From: Thermomicrobiales bacterium | Lineage (GTDB): Bacteria; Chloroflexota; Chloroflexia; Thermomicrobiales; UBA6265 | Assembly: GCA_020432165.1 (NCBI GenBank) | Contig: JAGQGU010000002.1 | Coordinates: 1,266-40,691, forward strand | Reading direction: 5' to 3' | DNA: 39,426 nt | Shown here: positions 29,384-39,405 of the stretch, in pieces | How the letters are laid out: every line of letters starts with the position of its first letter | Numbering within the stretch: position 1 is the first letter of the stretch | Position numbers and translations under genes: made by a program | The notes under the pieces: generated by a model | Seen by the model: only the letters and a program-made list of their open reading frames with translations | Told to the model about the DNA's origin: nothing | Databases searched by the model: none

Positions 29384-30481
29384 CTACGCCAGGATAAACA
29401 ACTCATGGGTCGAGGTATTCAACCGGCGGCCGCCCGCCGCCTCGCAAACGACCGCATCCTCGATGCGGACACCGAACTTGCCACTCATATAGATACCCGG
29501 CTCGTCGCTGAAGACCATTCCCTCCTGCAACGGCATGGTATTGCCTTCCACCAGGAATGGTTCCTCATGAACTTCCAACCCAAGTCCGTGACCAACGCGG
29601 TGCACGAAGTATTCGCCATAACCGGCTTCGGTGATGAGATTGCGGGCGGCGCGATCAAGTTCCTGCAGCGGCACACCTGGCTTTACTGCCTCGAATGTCG
29701 CCTGATTGGCTGCATTCACGATGTCATAGACCTTGCGATACTCCTCGCTGGGTGCGCCGAGATGGGCACTACGCGTGACATCGCTAAAGTAGCCATCAAT
29801 CATGCCGCCCCAGTCGAAGACGAGCGCATCGCCTTCTCCGATTACACGATCGTTACCACTGTGATGCGGGGAGGCAGAGTTCGGACCGGTACCAATGATG
29901 CCCTTGGGATTATCCAAACCAACGTCACCAGAGATATTCTTCAGCTTCTCCAGAGCCTGCAGCTCTGTGAGGCCAGCGATAGCACCGCCCTGGGTAACAA
30001 AGAGCATCCACGCCTCGTCTGTAAGGCGGCCGGCCTCATCCAGCGCGGCGATCTCTTCAGCATCCTTGCACATGCGCAAATCGCGCAGAATCGGATCACC
30101 TTCCTGCCAATTCACACCTGCAAGACGGTCCTGCAGACGAATCAGGAAGGAGCTCCAGAGCTTGTTGCCGACGGCCACCTTCTTCGCACCGGAAAGGATA
30201 CCGGCCGCAAGATCTGCTGGAACATCAGCATCGCCCCAGGTTTTGAGGCTGATCCGGCCACTGCCATCCTTGATGAGTGGTGCTTCCAGACCGGGCACGA
30301 TCATGTCCGGCTCCCCTTCCGCGGGAAGGATGAGCAGATTCAGCCGCTCGCTGACGTGTGCATCGATTCCGGTGAGGTAGTAGAGATCGGCACTCGGGCC
30401 AAGCAGCAATGTATCGATCCCGCGATCGCGCATCACTTCCTGCGCGCGATCCAGTCGTTTCCCGTATGTCTCTGCGTTCAT
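29384..30481 (-). CDS. M24 family aminopeptidase (Xaa-Pro type)
   Basis: A 365-residue pita-bread metallopeptidase. An N-terminal creatinase-like domain (about 1-130; MRDRGIDTLLLGPSADLYYLTG) precedes the catalytic domain. The metal ligands are in place: two aspartates in FDWGGMIDGYFSDVTRS, the histidine in HRVGHGLGLEVHEEPF, and glutamates in FSDEPGIYM and GVRIEDAVV. The start is ATG 30479-30481, six bases after GGAG; an ATG four codons upstream and a longer frame exist but lack a site. Likely substrates are peptides with proline in the second position. The gene is divergent from the MarR-ABC operon and its 3' end abuts the foldback repeat. Confidence 0.93.
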   Translation of the reverse strand: MNAETYGKRLDRAQEVMRDRGIDTLLLGPSADLYYLTGIDAHVSERLNLLILPAEGEPDMIVPGLEAPLIKDGSGRISLKTWGDADVPADLAAGILSGAKKVAVGNKLWSSFLIRLQDRLAGVNWQEGDPILRDLRMCKDAEEIAALDEAGRLTDEAWMLFVTQGGAIAGLTELQALEKLKNISGDVGLDNPKGIIGTGPNSASPHHSGNDRVIGEGDALVFDWGGMIDGYFSDVTRSAHLGAPSEEYRKVYDIVNAANQATFEAVKPGVPLQELDRAARNLITEAGYGEYFVHRVGHGLGLEVHEEPFLVEGNTMPLQEGMVFSDEPGIYMSGKFGVRIEDAVVCEAAGGRRLNTSTHELFILA

Positions 30482-30626
30482 GTGGTTCTCCATACAAAGG
30501 TGATCGGGAACGTCGCCCGCAAAAGTGCCGCCTCGTGTCGGCGACGGACATTTACCACCGTTATCGCAGAGGAAACGCGTTGTGTCGAGGGGATACCTGG
30601 GCATCTGCACGAATATCTCGATCCTC

Positions 30627-30676
30627 TTGCAGAATCAAACGGTACCTGTTATTAATTCTCCTGACGGTACCGTTAG
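30627..30676 (+). promoter_or_regulatory. Promoter with two candidate MarR operators
   Basis: TTGCAG (30627-30632), a 17-base spacer and TATTAA (30650-30655) form a plausible sigma-70-type promoter about 50 bases before the MarR start. AACGGTACCTGTT (30638-30650) lies in the spacer, and TGACGGTACCGTTAG (30662-30676), containing the perfect palindrome ACGGTACCGT, lies just after the -10. Their centres are 25 bases apart. The layout is that of an autorepressed promoter. Confidence 0.6.
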
Positions 30677-30704
30677 AACTTTCGCGATCGTTTAGGACAC
30701 CCAA

Positions 30705-31337
30705 ATGAACACAGATCTGTACGGAAAAATGATGAGGCTGCAATGGCTGCTTCATCGACACCATATGCGTAGGGCATTCCAGGGAGACCACCTCGCGGAC
30801 GCCACCCGCGGGCAAGGTCGGATTCTGGCGGCGCTGCAGCTGAAGGATGGCATCAGCACCAAGGATCTCTCCTATCTCCTGGGACTGGCTGTCTCATCCC
30901 TCAATGAATTTCTGGCCAAGCTCGAAAGAGGAGGCTATATCCGACGTGAAGCATCTCCACAAGACCGACGGGTAATGCTTGTCTACCTCACCGATAAGGG
31001 ACGCAAGCAACACCAGACCGAAACCTTCGATCCCGACGATATCTTTGCCTGCCTCACTTCTGACGAGCAGGAAAACCTCGGTCGCTATCTCGACAAAATC
31101 ATTGATGCGATCGAGATCGACGAGGACGATGACTTTGGCGGTAACGAATGGACCCGCACTGCCAGGGCCGTGCGCGAGCGTATGTCCGGTGAAATGTTGG
31201 CGCAGTTCGGTCGTGATAACAGAATCGATAACCGCAGTATGCGTCGCGACTTCCGCGAGGAGTTGCGACGCGAATTCAACAAGGCCCGCGGCCGCGATGG
31301 TCGCGAGGATGACAACACCAAAGGAAACAATCGATGA
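30705..31337 (+). CDS. MarR family transcriptional regulator with charged C-terminal extension
   Basis: A 210-residue winged-helix regulator. RGQGRILAALQLKDGISTKDLSYLLGLAVSSLNEFLAKLERGGYIRREASPQDRRVMLVYLT (in consecutive motifs, helix-turn-helix around KDLSYLLGLAVSSL and the wing at SPQDRRVM) is typical MarR. Beyond about residue 130 is an unusual tail, first acidic (IDEDDDF) then rich in Arg/Asp/Asn, absent from classic members. AGGA precedes ATG 30705. The stop overlaps the ABC ATPase start in ATGA, so it is expected to regulate the exporter from the operators at 30638-30676. The inducer is unknown. Confidence 0.88.
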   Translation: MNTDLYGKMMRLQWLLHRHHMRRAFQGDHLADATRGQGRILAALQLKDGISTKDLSYLLGLAVSSLNEFLAKLERGGYIRREASPQDRRVMLVYLTDKGRKQHQTETFDPDDIFACLTSDEQENLGRYLDKIIDAIEIDEDDDFGGNEWTRTARAVRERMSGEMLAQFGRDNRIDNRSMRRDFREELRREFNKARGRDGREDDNTKGNNR

Positions 31338-32290
31338 ACTCACATCTGGCAGTCGAGGCCAATAATCTCGTCAAAATCTTTGGCAGCAATCGCGCTGTCG
31401 ATGGCGTTAGCCTGGAGGTTCCGGCTGGCCGTATCTGTGGCGTCCTTGGCCCCAATGGTGCCGGCAAAACCACCACCATCAATATGCTCGCAACCTTGCT
31501 TACCCCTGATGGTGGCAGTGCACGCATCTTCGGCCACGACATCGTGACCGATACCCAACACGTGCGGCAGTTGATCGGACTCACCGGCCAGTTCGCCACG
31601 ATCGACGAAAACCTGACGGCAATGGAGAATCTGCGCATCTTCGCGATGTTACTTGGATATTCCTGGAAAGATGCGAAGACGAAAGCGGAAGAACTTCTGG
31701 AGGAGTTCGGACTCACCGAGGCAGCGAACCGCACACTCGCGAAGTTCTCCGGTGGTATGCGTCGTCGACTCGATCTCGCCGCCAGCCTACTCTCCCAACC
31801 TCCCCTCCTCTTCCTTGATGAGCCGACTACGGGTCTCGATCCACGTACCCGTTCACAGATGTGGGGCACCATTCGCCGCCTCGTACAGAGCGGATCGACT
31901 GTGTTGCTGACAACGCAATACCTCGATGAGGCAGACCAATTGGCAGACGACATTTACGTGATTGATCGTGGCAAAGTTGTTGGCCACGATACGCCGAGCG
32001 GGCTCAAACAGTCGGTCGATCTCTCATCTCTGCACCTGCAGATCGAGGACGCTGATCGTCTGAGCGAAGCTACCAACATCGCCGAACGCATCCTGGGCGA
32101 ATCCGCCCAGATCTCCGAGGCGGCCGAGATCTCGATACCACTCAAGCGGAGCGATCAACTTACTGATGTACTCATCGCCCTGCAACACGAGGACATCCAT
32201 CTCACCGCAATCAATGTCCAGCAACCGTCGCTGGATGATGTCTTCTTCGCCCTGACCGGCGAGGTCACGACCTATGAGGCTGCAGACTAA
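31334..32290 (+). CDS. ABC transporter ATP-binding protein, DrrA-type exporter
   Basis: A 318-residue ATPase. Walker A is GPNGAGKTT (residues 39-47), the signature is FSGGMRRRLDLA, Walker B with the catalytic glutamate is LLFLDEPTTGLD, and the switch histidine-type region is LLTTQYLDEADQLAD. The C-terminal extension (about 220-318) is the DrrA/daunorubicin-resistance type. It pairs with the following ABC-2 permease. Likely role is efflux of a hydrophobic compound or antibiotic, under control of the coupled MarR protein. Substrate unknown. Confidence 0.93.
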   Translation: MNSHLAVEANNLVKIFGSNRAVDGVSLEVPAGRICGVLGPNGAGKTTTINMLATLLTPDGGSARIFGHDIVTDTQHVRQLIGLTGQFATIDENLTAMENLRIFAMLLGYSWKDAKTKAEELLEEFGLTEAANRTLAKFSGGMRRRLDLAASLLSQPPLLFLDEPTTGLDPRTRSQMWGTIRRLVQSGSTVLLTTQYLDEADQLADDIYVIDRGKVVGHDTPSGLKQSVDLSSLHLQIEDADRLSEATNIAERILGESAQISEAAEISIPLKRSDQLTDVLIALQHEDIHLTAINVQQPSLDDVFFALTGEVTTYEAAD

Positions 32291-32291
32291 C

Positions 32292-33110
32292 ATGATCAAA
32301 GAAATCACCTTGCCTACCACAGGCGCCACATCGGCACGCGAGAGTTCGCTCGTGACGTCGATTCGCGAGACATTGATCTTCGCCTACCGCTCTACCATCA
32401 AGTCACTTCGCACACCAGAGAGTTTCCTGGACATCACGCTGATGCCGGTGATGTTCACCCTCATGTTTACTTTTCTCTTCGGAGGTGCCGTCGCCGGCAG
32501 CATCAAGGACTATCTGCCGATCATTATTCCAGGCATTCTGATTCAAACCGGCGTCACCTCCAGCAGCACAGCGGGCACGCAACTAAGGGAGGATGCAGAT
32601 AAAGCTGTAGCCAACCGGTTCAAGGCGATGCCGATCACCCGGATCTCGCCCCTGGCAGGCACACTCACCGCAGATATCCTTCGTTATACGATCGCTGGTA
32701 GCATCGTCTTCATCATGGGTTACATCCTGGGATTCCGACCCGATGCAGGGTTCTGGACCGTGCCGGTGAGCATTCTCTTCATGACCGCTATTGGGTGGTG
32801 CCTCAGCTGGATGTTCAGCTTCTTTGCACTCAGCGCCAGCTCCACAGCCACGGCCGCCAGCTATGGCATGATCATCATGTTTCCGCTCACCTTCCTCTCC
32901 AACGCCTTCGTAGATACAAGCACGATGCCACATGCACTAGGCTATTTCGCCGAGCACATCAATCCCATCTCTCACACGATAGCGGCGGTGCGGGAACTTC
33001 TGATGCAAGGCACAATCGGTAGCAACTTCTGGTCCGCCATTGCGGGTGTGCTGGTGATTCTGGCGATCTTCGTGCCGCTGACACTGCGCAAATACACACG
33101 CCGTGGGTAG
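32292..33110 (+). CDS. ABC-2 type permease, DrrB-like
   Basis: About 272 residues from ATG 32292, which lies one base after the ATPase stop; an alternative ATG at 32274 would overlap that gene. Six membrane segments are visible with the ABC2_membrane pattern: an N-terminal amphipathic helix (REtLIFAYRSTIKSL), PESFLDITLMPVMFTLMFTFLFGG, YLPIIIPGILIQTGVTSSS and the conserved FPLTFLSNAFVDTSTMP loop before the last helices. It forms the membrane half of the exporter. The set MarR-ATPase-permease is complete for a two-component half-transporter exporter. Confidence 0.9.
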   Translation: MIKEITLPTTGATSARESSLVTSIRETLIFAYRSTIKSLRTPESFLDITLMPVMFTLMFTFLFGGAVAGSIKDYLPIIIPGILIQTGVTSSSTAGTQLREDADKAVANRFKAMPITRISPLAGTLTADILRYTIAGSIVFIMGYILGFRPDAGFWTVPVSILFMTAIGWCLSWMFSFFALSASSTATAASYGMIIMFPLTFLSNAFVDTSTMPHALGYFAEHINPISHTIAAVRELLMQGTIGSNFWSAIAGVLVILAIFVPLTLRKYTRRG

Positions 33111-33234
33111 GCTTATTCATATACGGCTACGGCATCTGTGAATCCATGCACAATCGTGACCAAAACCGCTACACTTGCAGCGTTCGGCGCAGATGCCGCA
33201 TACCCACCGCCATCTCCAATTTTCAGGACAGTAC

Positions 33235-35508
33235 ATGACCACACAATCCGCTCATCCTGCGTTCCGTATTGCCATCGATATGGATGGCGTTCTTACCGAG
33301 AGCCCGGTGCCGCTGGCTCGCGCCGCCAATGCCGAGTTCGGTCTTGATCTGCCCGATCTTGCCTTTGTCGATTCCAGCGGATTGAACGTACCGCTTGCGG
33401 TGCGGGAATGGGTCTATCGCGGTGATGGTCCGGCCAGCAAGCTGCATCCCGCACATGGTGCGCAGCAGTTCATCAACGATCTCATTGGTCTCGTTGGTCA
33501 GGAGAATGTGCTCATCGTCACTGCTCGCCCCGAGAACTCGGCCGAGATGACGATCCGCTGGTTCCACGAGCATGGCTTTGCTTCGGTGCAGATCATCTTT
33601 GCCGATGACAAAACCGCCATTGCCTCGCGCCAGGGCTGCAAGTTCGCGGTGGAAGATAGCCTCCGCCACGCCCGCAATTACTCGGCTGGCGATGTTACCT
33701 GCTATCTCATTAACAATGTCGAGCAGCTACCTGCCGATGCCAATCCACTCATGGTCACGGTGAACAGTTTCGACGAAATCGTGCGCCGACTCTCCATCGC
33801 CACCCAGCCGGTCTCGCCGAGTGCTGTTATCGATGCCCTGCCGCCAATGGAAACCACCTCGCCGAGCGAACGTTGGCGCATCGTGGTTGCTGATCAGATT
33901 CACAAGGTCGCACGCGAGCAACTGGAAGCAGTGGCCACGATTGTCGATGTCGATGGCACTGATGTGAATGCATTGCTCGGTGTGCTTCACGATGCCGATG
34001 CTCTTGTGGTCCGGAGCGAAACACAGGTGACCCAGCAAGTACTGGATGCAGCTCCCCGCCTGAAGGTCATCGCCCGCGCCGGTGTGGGTGTCGACAACAT
34101 CGACGTTGCCGCCAGTACACGGGCCGGTGTGATTGTGTTGAATGCGCCGGGGGCCAATGCCACCAGTGCCGGCGAGCATACGATCGCCTTGCTGCTGGCA
34201 GTCACGCGCCAGATTCCCTTTGCCAATGCCACCACTCACGCTGGTGAGTGGAAGCGCAAGCAGATCAAACCCATCGACCTTCGTGGCCGCACACTCGGTA
34301 TGATCGGTATCGGTCGTGTCGGCAGCGTCGTGGCGAAGCGCCTCAAGGCCTTCGAGATGCAGGTAATCGCTTACGATCCCTATCTTCCGCGGCAACGATT
34401 CGCTGATATGGGTGTGGAGCAGGTCGAACTGGAGGATATCTGGACCCGATCCGATATCGTCACCTTCCATAGTCCCAGCACAACTGAAACCCACCACATC
34501 CTCAATGCTGAGACATTGGCGAAGATGAAACCGGGTGCGATTGTGATTAACGCCGGTCGGGGCGAACTTGTCGATGAGTTCGCACTCGCCGATGCACTTA
34601 AGAGTGGGCATATCAGCGGCGCCGGTGTGGATGTTTTCCCTTTCGAGCCCTGCACCGAAAGTCCCCTTTTCGGTCTACCAAACGTTGTGCTGACTCCGCA
34701 TACCGGTGGCTCCTCGGCTGAAGCGCTGGAGGCCGTGGGACGAGTTATTGGCGCGACGACTATCGCTGCGCTCAACGGCGAAGCTGTGCCGAATGCCGTC
34801 AATCTCCCCGCAGCATCGCTGGAGAGTCGGGCCCTGAAGCTGCTGACGCAGGTCAGCTCCGCCGCCGGTCACCTTTGCGCGGTGATCATGCCAGAGCACC
34901 CGCGTTCGTTCAGCGTGCAGGCCACCGGTATGGTCAGCAACGATCTCACCGAGCATGTCTGCAATAGCGCACTGGCGGCGGCCCTCCAGACCTGGCTGGG
35001 TCGACGGGTCACGCCGGTCAACGCGCGCCTCATCGCCCAGGAGATGGGCATGAGTATCCAGACAAGCGCCGACGATGGCGACGAGACGATCATTCCCCGC
35101 TTCCGCTTCGAGATCGAGGGTGTGAGTAAGCATAGCGTCGTCGTCAGTTGGGATCGCGATATCGCTGGCATCGTCGAAGTCGATCGCTTCGGTTTGCAGC
35201 AACCGCTGAGCGGGTATGTGCTTATCACGCACCACACCGACAAGCCGGGCATTATCGGTGCGCTTAGCACCACGCTCGCGAGCTACAACATCAATATCGC
35301 CGGTATGCAGGTGAGCCGCACCGCGCCGCGCGGTGAAGCGATGATGGTGACGAATGTCGACGAGGAGATTCCGGAGGACGCGCTGAATGTCATCCGTCGC
35401 ATTGATGGTATGGAGAACGCGGTGATCGTCAGCCTGCCAAACATGCTCGAGGATGAGGATCCGGTGCATGTCGCCAACATGATCACTAACGGTATTCGGG
35501 GGCGATAG
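33235..35508 (+). CDS. HAD-phosphatase / D-3-phosphoglycerate dehydrogenase fusion
   Basis: A 757-residue fusion. Residues about 10-190 form a HAD-like phosphatase resembling 5'(3')-deoxyribonucleotidases, with all motifs intact: IDMDGV (Asp15, Asp17), VTARPE (Thr96), DDKTA (Lys126) and VEDSLRH (Glu140, Asp141). From about 213 a full SerA follows: NAD motif GMIGIGRVGS, catalytic Arg442 (NAGRGE), Glu471 (VFPFEP) and His489 (TPHTGGS), then the ASB domain and a C-terminal ACT domain (ITHHTDKPGIIGALS). SerA makes 3-phosphohydroxypyruvate for serine synthesis; ACT usually senses serine. ATG 33235 follows AGGA. The extra phosphatase domain is uncommon and its substrate is unknown. No serC or serB is in the window. 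Confidence 0.88.
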   Translation: MTTQSAHPAFRIAIDMDGVLTESPVPLARAANAEFGLDLPDLAFVDSSGLNVPLAVREWVYRGDGPASKLHPAHGAQQFINDLIGLVGQENVLIVTARPENSAEMTIRWFHEHGFASVQIIFADDKTAIASRQGCKFAVEDSLRHARNYSAGDVTCYLINNVEQLPADANPLMVTVNSFDEIVRRLSIATQPVSPSAVIDALPPMETTSPSERWRIVVADQIHKVAREQLEAVATIVDVDGTDVNALLGVLHDADALVVRSETQVTQQVLDAAPRLKVIARAGVGVDNIDVAASTRAGVIVLNAPGANATSAGEHTIALLLAVTRQIPFANATTHAGEWKRKQIKPIDLRGRTLGMIGIGRVGSVVAKRLKAFEMQVIAYDPYLPRQRFADMGVEQVELEDIWTRSDIVTFHSPSTTETHHILNAETLAKMKPGAIVINAGRGELVDEFALADALKSGHISGAGVDVFPFEPCTESPLFGLPNVVLTPHTGGSSAEALEAVGRVIGATTIAALNGEAVPNAVNLPAASLESRALKLLTQVSSAAGHLCAVIMPEHPRSFSVQATGMVSNDLTEHVCNSALAAALQTWLGRRVTPVNARLIAQEMGMSIQTSADDGDETIIPRFRFEIEGVSKHSVVVSWDRDIAGIVEVDRFGLQQPLSGYVLITHHTDKPGIIGALSTTLASYNINIAGMQVSRTAPRGEAMMVTNVDEEIPEDALNVIRRIDGMENAVIVSLPNMLEDEDPVHVANMITNGIRGR

Positions 35509-35546
35509 AGACCGAGAGCGGTGCGTAAGTCCACTCTTCCTTCGAT

Positions 35547-35596
35547 GCGGGCGAATACTCTTCGAGATTCGCCCCTACGTGGGCGACATCGCCCGC
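35547..35596. repeat. Foldback element overlapping the end of rarD
   Basis: GCGGGCGA (35547-35554) and TCGCCCGC (35589-35596) are perfect inverted ends. Two internal hairpins compete: GGGCGAAT...ATTCGCCC and GGGCGA-CA-TCGCCC. The last six codons of rarD, including its TAG, lie inside the right half. Confidence 0.7.
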
Positions 35597-36483
35597 CTCC
35601 TGCCTCGCAGGGAATCGACGGTCAGCAGCACCAGCGCGCACCAGACGATACCGAATCCGATCCAGCGACCGCGGCTCATATGCTCGCCAAACACCAACAC
35701 GCCTACCAGAAACTGGCCGATGGGTGTGATGTACTGCAACAAGCCCGTGATGACCAGTGGTAGCCTGCGGGCGGCAGCGCCAAAGAGCGTCAACGGCAGA
35801 ATCGTGATCAACCCGAGAAACGTCAGCAAAAGTGTGTGGCGGAGTCCATGATGGAGATAGGTGAGATTGTTGGCGTGAGCTGATATCCACCACAGCGCAC
35901 CAAGCGAAAATGGCACCAGTAACACGCTCTCGGCAGTCATCGTTTCCACCGCACCCATACTCACGCCAAGCATTTTCTTGATATAGCCATAGATACTGAA
36001 GCTGACCGCGAGTAGCAGCGCAAGCCAGGGTGGCTGTCCGTAATCGATCGTTATCACGATCACCGCCAACACGCCAAGTCCGATAGCGGTCCACTGGGTG
36101 GCGTTCATGCGCTCCTTCAGCACCAGAACACCGATGAGTACAAGAATGATGGGGTTAATGAAATACCCGAGCGAGCTCTCCAGCACATTATCCTGACTGA
36201 CAGCATAGATATAGATGCCCCAGTTCACCGCCAGGACATAGGCAGCGATGGTGACGACTCCTAACCGGCGTGGATGCTGCCAGAGCGATTTCATCCAGCC
36301 GAGATCACCCCGGATCGCCCAGAAAATCATGCAGAAAATGGCGCTCCAGAGGATGCGATGCGCGAGTATCTCCAGAGGACCAGCTGGCTCCAGTGCATGG
36401 AAGTAAATGGGCAGGACGCCCCAGGAACCATATGCAAGTGCACCAAACAACACACCCCGACGGGTCTCATCATGTTGCCTCAT
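35575..36483 (-). CDS. rarD: EamA/DMT superfamily permease, RarD type
   Basis: A 302-residue protein with ten membrane helices in two EamA repeats. RarD signatures are present: RGVLFGALAYGSWGVLPIYFHAL, EILAHRILWS, NWGIYIYAVSQDNVLESSLGYFINPII and QYITPIGQFLVGVLVFGEHMS. RarD members are putative metabolite or chloramphenicol-related permeases without a proven common substrate. ATG 36481-36483 is preceded by GGAG about 11 bases upstream. The C-terminus (AMSPT) and stop are encoded inside the foldback repeat. The gene is divergent from lysA. Confidence 0.92.
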   Translation of the reverse strand: MRQHDETRRGVLFGALAYGSWGVLPIYFHALEPAGPLEILAHRILWSAIFCMIFWAIRGDLGWMKSLWQHPRRLGVVTIAAYVLAVNWGIYIYAVSQDNVLESSLGYFINPIILVLIGVLVLKERMNATQWTAIGLGVLAVIVITIDYGQPPWLALLLAVSFSIYGYIKKMLGVSMGAVETMTAESVLLVPFSLGALWWISAHANNLTYLHHGLRHTLLLTFLGLITILPLTLFGAAARRLPLVITGLLQYITPIGQFLVGVLVFGEHMSRGRWIGFGIVWCALVLLTVDSLRGRRRAMSPT

Positions 36484-36608
36484 CGAATGGTGCGCTCCTC
36501 ACAAATCGTATCGATTCAGATTGGTATTCTGCGGGCATGGTGCCACATATGCAATCCGTGCGACACTTGATGCATATCAGGGGTCACGAATACGCAGGGG
36601 GAGCGAAC

Positions 36609-37916
36609 GTGGGTGAGGTCTGGCCGGTAACAACATGCCGGAATGATGCTGGCGAACTAACTGTGGGCGGAGTGAGCCTGGTCAGTTTGGCCAACGAATT
36701 TGGTACGCCGCTCTATATCTATGACGAAGAAACGCTGCGCACATCCATGCGAGCATGGAAGCACGCCCTCACCTCTCGCCTGCCCGGTTCACGCGTTGTA
36801 TATGCAGGCAAGGCCTTTCTCTGCACAGCAATGGCGCAGATTATCGCCGAAGAAGGGCTCGGACTCGATTGCGTCTCAGATGGTGAGCTTTTTGTCGGAC
36901 TGAATGGCGGGGTCGCCTCGGCGATGCTCAGCCTCCACGGCAACAACAAGGGCCGCAACGAGATCGAGATGGCGCTCGAAGCCAATATCGGCAAGATCAT
37001 TGTCGATAACTTCGATGAGATCGAGATGTTGGCGGAGCTCACCGCCGATCGTGACGAACCCATAACGGTGCTCATCCGCCTGAACCCGGGTGTGGATGTG
37101 CATACGCACAAAAAGATCAGCACGGGTATGGCGGATTCCAAATTCGGCCTACCCATTGCCGATGGCCAGGCGGAAGAAGCCGTCATTCAACTGCAGCAAT
37201 TGCCAGGTGTTCACCTGGCTGGTTACCACGCCCATGTTGGCAGCCAACTCTTCGATACCGATGCACACACCGCGGCCATCGCCGATATGATCGCCTTCGC
37301 AGCTGATATGCGGGCAAAACACAGTGTGGAGTTGGAGATATTCTCGCCTGGTGGTGGCTTCGGTATCAGTTATCTGGATGGTGATGCACCGCTGACCCCC
37401 GACTACTGGGTCGAAATACTTGCCACGGCCATCGAATCGGCCTGCACCGCTCACGAGTTGCCGTTACCAATGGTCATTATCGAACCTGGCCGCGCGATTG
37501 CAGGCCCGGCGGGTCTCACCGTATACACCGTGGGGACACGTAAGGAGCTGGAAGGTATCCGCACCTATGTGAGTGTGGATGGGGGTATGGCTGATAATAT
37601 CCGTCCGTCGTTGTATGATGCTCGCTACACAGCAGTTATCGCGAACCGCGAGCCGCAGGAAGACGTGATAGAGAACGTCACGATAGCCGGCAAGTATTGC
37701 GAGAGTGGTGATCTGCTGATTGAGGATATATCGCTACCACCCGCTCACGAAGGAGATCTGCTGGCCGTTCCTGCCACCGGCGCGTATTGCCTGGCAATGG
37801 GCAGCAACTACAATATGTCACTGAAACCGGCGGTGGTGCTCGTGAACCAGAGTGCCGCCCGCCTGATTCGTCGCCGGGAATCCTTCGCCGATCTGATTCG
37901 GCTGGATCTTCCTTAG
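36609..37916 (+). CDS. lysA: Diaminopimelate decarboxylase
   Basis: A 435-residue PLP enzyme that converts meso-diaminopimelate to lysine. [10 protein letters not shown] carries the PLP lysine, [10 protein letters not shown] and [11 protein letters not shown] follow, [10 protein letters not shown] has the conserved His, and [10 protein letters not shown] the glycine loop. [14 protein letters not shown], the cysteine in AGKYCESGD and [12 protein letters not shown] complete the active site. The start is GTG 36609, five bases after GGGGGAG; a much longer open frame upstream overlaps the rarD promoter and lacks homology. The gene is followed by the sigma factor with 19 bases between, so co-transcription is possible. 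Confidence 0.96.
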
Positions 37917-37935
37917 GCCCGTCTGGAGGCATTTT

Positions 37936-39405
37936 GTGCCAAACAAACGTCGGTCTGACCACGATGATGCAGCCGATGAGCGCGGGCTGAGCCTGCGTGA
38001 TGATGAGGCGCGCATTCATGAACTCGATGAGATAGTAGACAGCGACGCCGAAGCGATTGAGATCGATGATGACGAAGATGATCGGCATCCGCTCAACTAC
38101 CGCAGCGAACTCGCTGACAATGTCGATCTCGATACCGATCTTGTCGGTGTCTCGCTCGATGATCCCGTGCGCATGTATCTGCGCGAGATCGGTCGCGTAG
38201 CGCTGATCTCTGCCGAACGCGAAATCGAACTCAGCATGGCCATGGATTTGGCTGCCTACGTTACGGAAACACGCACACTGCTAGGCGCCGAAGGTACCCA
38301 TGAACCAACTGCGACCGAAATCGGGATGCACATCTGGATGACCTTTCGCGTCGGGTGGCCGATTGCGCTCGATCTCTATCGTCTGATTGAGAGTGAAGAA
38401 CCGGAGACGATTCCTCAGGTACTGGATCGGGTGTTGCCGGTAACCGGTGTGGATAATGCCGCCTTTGGCACGATTGCCGAACGCTACAACCTCTCCCCCG
38501 CCGACCTTGAAGAGCAGCTGCGGCAACGCCGGGTTGAATGGGCGTTGCTCCCGGAATCGATTCAGAAAACACTCTCGATCGCCGATGCCTGGCCAAACGA
38601 TGCCTCGATTCAGGAAGTTTGGGAGAAACGCGAGGTTCGCCAAAAACGCACCTGGGAACAGATCGAAGTTGAAGGGGCTCAGGCAAAGGTCGCCTTAACC
38701 GAGGCCAATCTAAGACTGGTTGTCTCGGTGGCCAAGAAATACGTCAATCGCGGCATGAGCATGTTGGATCTGATCCAGGAAGGCAACCTGGGACTCATCC
38801 GTGCCGTTGAGAAATTCCAGCATCACAAGGGCTTTAAATTCAGCACGTACGCGATGTGGTGGATTCGGCAGGCGATCAGCCGTGCCATTGCGGATCAGGC
38901 ACGAACCATTCGCATCCCCGTCCACATGATTGAGACCATCAACAAAATTCAGCGGACCAAGCGTGAACTGCAACTGGAGCTCGGTAAGGAGCCGACGAAC
39001 GAAGAAATCGGCGCAGTCCTGGAGATGACACCAGAGCGTGTGGCCGAGATCCTCAAGCTGAACCAGGATCCGATCAGCCTCGAAATGCCCGTAGGTGAGG
39101 AGGACGATAGCTCGCTGGGCGACTTCATTGAGGATGAGTCCGCGATGGCACCGCCGGACGAGGCGAGTCTGCAGCTCCTGCGCGAACAGGTCGGCGATGT
39201 GTTGGATACGCTCACTCCGCGCGAACGCGATGTGATTCTGATGCGCTATGGACTGGGCGACGGTCGCAATCGCACGTTGGAAGATGTCGGCAAATATGTC
39301 GGCGTCACCCGCGAGCGTATTCGCCAGATTGAGGCCAAGGCGCTGCGCAAGCTCCGACATCCCAGTCGCGCACAGAAATTGCGCGACTTTCTGGATGACA
39401 ACTAA
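37936..39405 (+). CDS. Principal RNA polymerase sigma factor (SigA/RpoD type)
   Basis: A 489-residue sigma-70 factor. An acidic N-terminus precedes region 1.2 ([18 protein letters not shown], around residue 75). Region 2 has [38 protein letters not shown] and [17 protein letters not shown], the -10 recognition helix. Region 3 is [14 protein letters not shown]; region 4 is [18 protein letters not shown] and [23 protein letters not shown] 37936 has GGAGG six bases upstream. A non-conserved insertion of roughly 130 residues separates 1.2 from 2. It is probably the housekeeping factor or a close paralogue. Confidence 0.94.

Follow-up and report, generated by a model that had tools for sequence, protein, structure and literature searches.

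A HAD phosphatase domain fused to phosphoglycerate dehydrogenase in Thermomicrobiales, a candidate for the missing phosphoserine phosphatase

The stretch of DNA that we analysed (hereafter, the window) comprises 39,426 nucleotides from a Thermomicrobiales bacterium. On its forward strand, a single open frame (33235..35508 including the stop; ATG at 33235, TAG ending at 35508) encodes a 757-residue protein in which a HAD phosphatase domain precedes a phosphoglycerate dehydrogenase (SerA), and relatives carry the same fusion. The HAD domain occupies residues 1–190 (33235..33804), with the fold itself starting at about residue 9, and its motifs are Asp15/Asp17 (33277–33285), Thr96 (33520–33522), Lys126 (33610–33612) and Glu140/Asp141 (33652–33657). 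A cap insert (residues 22–85; 33298..33489) bears the motif DSxG...VRxWVY...GPA, which is conserved among the fusions; this insert is likely the part that recognises the substrate. The interdomain linker (residues 191–213; 33805..33873) varies in length and sequence, and evolves much faster than the HAD domain. There follow the catalytic and NAD-binding domains of SerA (residues 214–523; 33874..34803), the intervening domain PGDH_inter (residues 542–616; 34858..35082), and an ACT domain (residues 661–724; 35215..35406), all on the same strand. The neighbours of the fusion gene (window 29384–39405) are an M24 peptidase, a MarR regulator, an ABC-2 exporter pair, an EamA transporter, a gene of the Orn/DAP/Arg-decarboxylase family that is likely lysA, and a sigma-70 factor; none of them is a serine-pathway gene. 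Nor did we recognise a recurrent serC, or any other serine gene, when the neighbourhoods of ten fusions were inspected by eye.

The C-terminal part is, to judge from its sequence, a complete ACT-containing phosphoglycerate dehydrogenase. Model TIGR01327 matches residues 215–734 over its whole length (positions 1–525 of 525; 5.7e-154; 513.7 bits against a cut-off of 454), and the Pfam models for 2-Hacid_dh and 2-Hacid_dh_C (PF00389, PF02826) and for ACT (PF01842, 2.8e-12) all score above their cut-offs. The intervening domain falls just below its own (PF19304; 22.7 bits against 27), and lies inside the full-length TIGR01327 match. The catalytic residues Arg442, Glu471 and His489 are invariant in the five fusions that we aligned. 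A full SerA with an ACT domain points to serine as the product of the pathway served here, and serine is probably also the ligand of the ACT domain.

The HAD part is also well preserved: Asp15, Asp17, Thr96, Lys126, Glu140 and Asp141 are invariant in 34 of 34 aligned domains, some rows of this alignment being near-duplicates of one genome. The earlier note, made from the window sequence, had described full catalytic sets in both halves of the protein, and the alignments bear this out. In the cap, Glu22, Asp46, Ser47, Gly49, Trp59, Val60, Tyr61, Gly65, Pro66 and Ala67 are also invariant, and Arg57 is present in 33 of the 34; Glu22, Asp46 and Arg57 could bind the amino and carboxylate groups of a substrate. 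It is conceivable that a domain tethered to an allosteric enzyme acts as a non-enzymatic, regulatory or structural appendage of SerA, but we consider this very improbable, as the invariant catalytic residues would be needless in a non-catalytic domain.

Assignment of the HAD domain to a subfamily drew upon profiles and a structural model. No Pfam or NCBIfam HAD model scores above its cut-off on the window protein, and a search of PDB sequences with the HAD part gave no significant match. An AlphaFold2 model of residues 1–191 (pLDDT 85.1; pTM 0.82) matches HAD structures over nearly its full length, and Foldseek agrees on the HAD fold; the full-length model (pLDDT 53.5) was left out of this reading. 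The best structural matches are 5'(3')-deoxyribonucleotidases (3bwv, Z 14.6; 1z4i, Z 14.1), although a number of other HAD phosphatases score within roughly one Z unit of these, so that the fold alone cannot fix the subfamily. The NT5C profile (PF06941; cut-off 24.8 bits) gives 16.7 bits on the window domain and 29.7 bits on one other fusion member, whereas the SerB model TIGR00338 matches neither the fusion nor any of 19 HAD domains at E values up to 1. Profile and modelled fold therefore agree in placing the domain closer to the 5'(3')-deoxyribonucleotidases (NT5C) than to SerB, as the earlier note had suspected.

This affinity lends some substance to another proposal, namely that the HAD domain is a housekeeping or repair phosphatase (for deoxynucleotides, phosphoglycolate, 2-phospholactate or similar compounds) that became tied to SerA by chance, while an unrecognised phosphoserine phosphatase makes serine. 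The nearest folds, and the one fusion member that exceeds the NT5C cut-off, are compatible with such a role. On the other hand, the cap motif of the fusions is unlike that of stand-alone NT5C-like relatives (RxWVY...GPA was not seen in the distant stand-alone HAD sequences that we compared), and a tie to SerA that is conserved throughout an order would be left without a reason. We regard this proposal as improbable, and return to it below.

The fusion is no artefact. Counting the window's own genome together with its relatives, 48 of 61 carry the HAD domain. Apart from fragments, the domain lies in frames as long as such a fusion, and the fragments that we inspected all end at contig edges. 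The fused assemblies include some of only 2 (G045), 4 (G049), 8 (G033) and 10 (G037) contigs. An assembly join or a frameshift near codon 200, which the earlier note had raised as a threat to its claim, is excluded by the recurrence of the same single-frame fusion in many independent genomes. Three apparently unfused SerA copies (G022, G025 and G028) were set aside: their frames begin at contig edges, and are thus truncated.

A class-wide search placed the HAD domain in 29 of 115 genomes, all of them from three families of the order Thermomicrobiales. Plain SerA is found in two genomes of a fourth family of this order (G034 and G038), and in the six genomes of other orders that were searched. 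Among 400 genomes sampled from the phylum, matches outside the three families were weak (E of 4e-11 at best) and included no fusions of this kind. The earlier note had looked to Chloroflexota at large, which proved too wide: among the genomes searched, the fusion is confined to one order. Within it the HAD domain is under purifying selection, with dN of 0.05 and 0.13 against dS of 0.92 and 1.35 in comparisons with the two nearest relatives. A phage origin for the domain was considered and rejected; the viral matches amount to one weak phage record and four viral contigs at 27–31% identity. Two viral contigs (L152 and L155) encode proteins of 311–319 residues in which a distant HAD relative is C-terminal, with a part of about 125 residues ahead of it.

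We also asked which phosphoserine phosphatases are encoded in fused and unfused genomes. In the window genome, the sole weak match to TIGR00338 is a P-type ATPase. SerB is above cut-off in just 6 of the 115 class genomes, so its absence alone is a weak argument, and a survey of the other well-known phosphoserine phosphatase, the metal-independent PspA type, was needed. For this we used the sequence of PDB entry 4ij5, taken from an alignment, as the query against the 100 class genomes that are at least 90% complete; a PspA-type call was set at E≤1e-30, a line picked after the scores had been seen, and the genomes' best scores show a gap from 2.6e-32 to 4.9e-29. In 58 of the 60 genomes of four unfused families (f6–f9) there is a full-length PspA relative (best E values of 1e-32 to 1e-46; 33–42% identity), and the histidine at PspA position 85 is kept in all 29 distinct top PspA-type sequences aligned from unfused families. 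The five genomes of family f10 have SerB in place of the PspA-type enzyme.

The fused genomes present a different picture. SerB above cut-off is missing from all 27 that reach 90% completeness, and so is a PspA-type enzyme at E≤1e-30 (the best match is 1e-26; about 8–9 of the 27 lack any PspA match at E≤1e-3). The earlier note had named a separate functional serB among the things that would count against its reading; neither a SerB nor a PspA-type enzyme was found in any fused genome tested. One or other enzyme is present in 0 of 27 fused against 63 of 73 unfused genomes (Fisher 1.8e-16, a value that exaggerates the support, given that the genomes share ancestry and that the events were few and affected whole clades). 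The better-scoring histidine phosphatases of the window genome have Tyr, Asn or Phe at position 85, and one low-scoring protein has His. This genome also contains two tandem histidine phosphatase pairs, L086/L088 (G000:C19:19193-20484) and L087/L090 (G000:C82:78154-79274), without the PspA-type His85.

Both known phosphatases are also absent from ten unfused genomes (G024, G034, G035, G119, G125 and five of family f12), so that a genome may lack them without having the fusion. No SerA close to that of the fusion was found in G024 or G035, and the gene may therefore be missing from those assemblies. Two others, G141 (family f12) and G034 (family f4), have a full plain SerA without SerB above cut-off, a PspA-type enzyme or the fusion. 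Other unrecognised phosphoserine phosphatases must exist in the class, and G034 and the f12 genomes likely have one. These genomes give the repair proposal a further point in its favour; against it, the serine step would be left unfilled in all 27 fused genomes, and the earlier note's alternative of a phosphatase for damaged or side products is to that extent the less supported. With the known serine phosphatases missing from the fused genomes, the last step of the pathway has no better candidate there than the HAD domain joined to SerA.

The aminotransferase step bears upon which substrate this candidate might use. Canonical SerC (TIGR01364 above cut-off) is present in none of ten fused genomes tested, against four of six unfused ones, and TIGR01366 passes its cut-off in none of the genomes tested. 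Of the same ten, nine encode a strong aminotransferase of the serine/alanine-glyoxylate type (39–50% identity to the query); in the tenth, G039, no close homologue was found. In the window genome, a candidate aminotransferase lies at G000:C76:156559-157608. Solved relatives of this enzyme are named serine-pyruvate or serine-glyoxylate aminotransferases. This pattern is what might be expected if the HAD domain acted on SerA's own product, converting 3-phosphohydroxypyruvate to hydroxypyruvate, from which an aminotransferase of the serine-pyruvate/glyoxylate type would make serine. The HAD domain would then be fused to the very enzyme that makes its substrate, the two steps would be consecutive, and release of phosphate would pull the unfavourable SerA step. 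This is the chief rival of the reading that we favour, and it accounts more directly for a fusion to SerA; we nevertheless hold it to be rather unlikely. In unfused genome G106 the query aminotransferase gene adjoins serA (L098 / L172; G106:C1:494086-496846), and this genome encodes a PspA-type phosphatase and lacks a canonical SerC; the aminotransferase therefore probably acts on a phosphorylated substrate there, which suggests that enzymes of this type can serve as phosphoserine aminotransferases. Furthermore, just one paper in the open-access literature searched names a phosphohydroxypyruvate phosphatase activity. It is accordingly doubtful that these bacteria follow a serine route with neither SerC nor a phosphoserine phosphatase, in which phosphohydroxypyruvate is dephosphorylated on the SerA polypeptide, a route undescribed in the open-access papers that we found.

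On balance, it seems rather probable to us that the HAD domain is an independently recruited phosphoserine phosphatase, and the fusion a bifunctional SerA; this reading is based on the fusion itself and on the phylogenetic profile. The C-terminal SerA would oxidise 3-phosphoglycerate to 3-phosphohydroxypyruvate, with the ACT domain probably sensing serine; phosphoserine would come from an aminotransferase whose gene lies elsewhere, probably one of the serine/alanine-glyoxylate type; and the N-terminal HAD domain would release serine from phosphoserine by the usual HAD mechanism. Asp15 would form the aspartyl-phosphate and Asp17 serve as acid/base, Thr96 and Lys126 would bind the phosphate, and Glu140/Asp141 would help to bind Mg2+. 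The domain would have arisen in a deoxyribonucleotidase-like branch, apart from both SerB and the PspA-type enzyme. In this scheme, we infer the substrate of the HAD domain, the ligand of the ACT domain and the choice of aminotransferase.

Besides the ten unfused genomes without either known phosphatase, other considerations weigh against the bifunctional reading: by profile and fold the HAD domain is nearest to 5'(3')-deoxyribonucleotidases; the fusion and the phosphatase losses may each be a single event in one clade, and so represent few independent events; and the steps of SerA and phosphoserine phosphatase are not consecutive. The bifunctional serine enzyme that the earlier note had proposed gains strong circumstantial support from the lack of SerB and PspA-type enzymes in the fused genomes tested, phosphoserine being a more probable substrate than phosphohydroxypyruvate.

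An independent origin of a phosphoserine phosphatase within the HAD superfamily would have a precedent: Thermus reportedly has a HAD phosphoserine phosphatase whose evolution was independent of SerB. In the biosynthesis of amino acids by bacteria, the lack of a known phosphoserine phosphatase is a recognised gap; one such gap was left unfilled in Desulfovibrio (PMC5764234), and several are listed elsewhere (PMC7311316). Should the bifunctional reading be correct, that gap would be filled for most of an order, and one bacterial class would hold three solutions of independent origin: the PspA-type enzyme, SerB and the fused HAD domain. The first step of the pathway would be physically tied to its phosphatase, and hence testable in one protein, and annotation pipelines would be helped where serine synthesis would otherwise show a gap.

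SerA, HAD phosphatases and serine-pathway fusions are all of kinds already known; in the open-access literature (most subscription journals lie outside it) we found no report of a SerA–phosphatase fusion or of serine synthesis in Thermomicrobia. With the NT5C enzymes (PF06941; 3bwv, 1z4i, 2i7d) the window HAD domain shares its fold and motif layout (Z of 13–15, about 20% identity), but it falls under the Pfam cut-off, has a cap motif of its own, and is fused to SerA. SerB (TIGR00338) belongs to the same superfamily and catalyses the reaction that we propose here, yet its cap is unlike that of the window domain, on which the SerB model has no match. The same reaction is also that of PspA (4ij5), which is found in sister families without the fusion; its histidine-phosphatase fold, in contrast, is unrelated to HAD. 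The known SerA with intervening and ACT domains (TIGR01327) is matched at full length and above cut-off, with the same Arg/Glu/His residues and an ACT domain, the difference being that the window protein begins with a HAD domain of about 190 residues. Finally, the PGDH–PSAT fusions of oomycetes and brown algae (PMC5715807) also join enzymes of the serine pathway; in those eukaryotes, however, the partner is the aminotransferase rather than a phosphatase.
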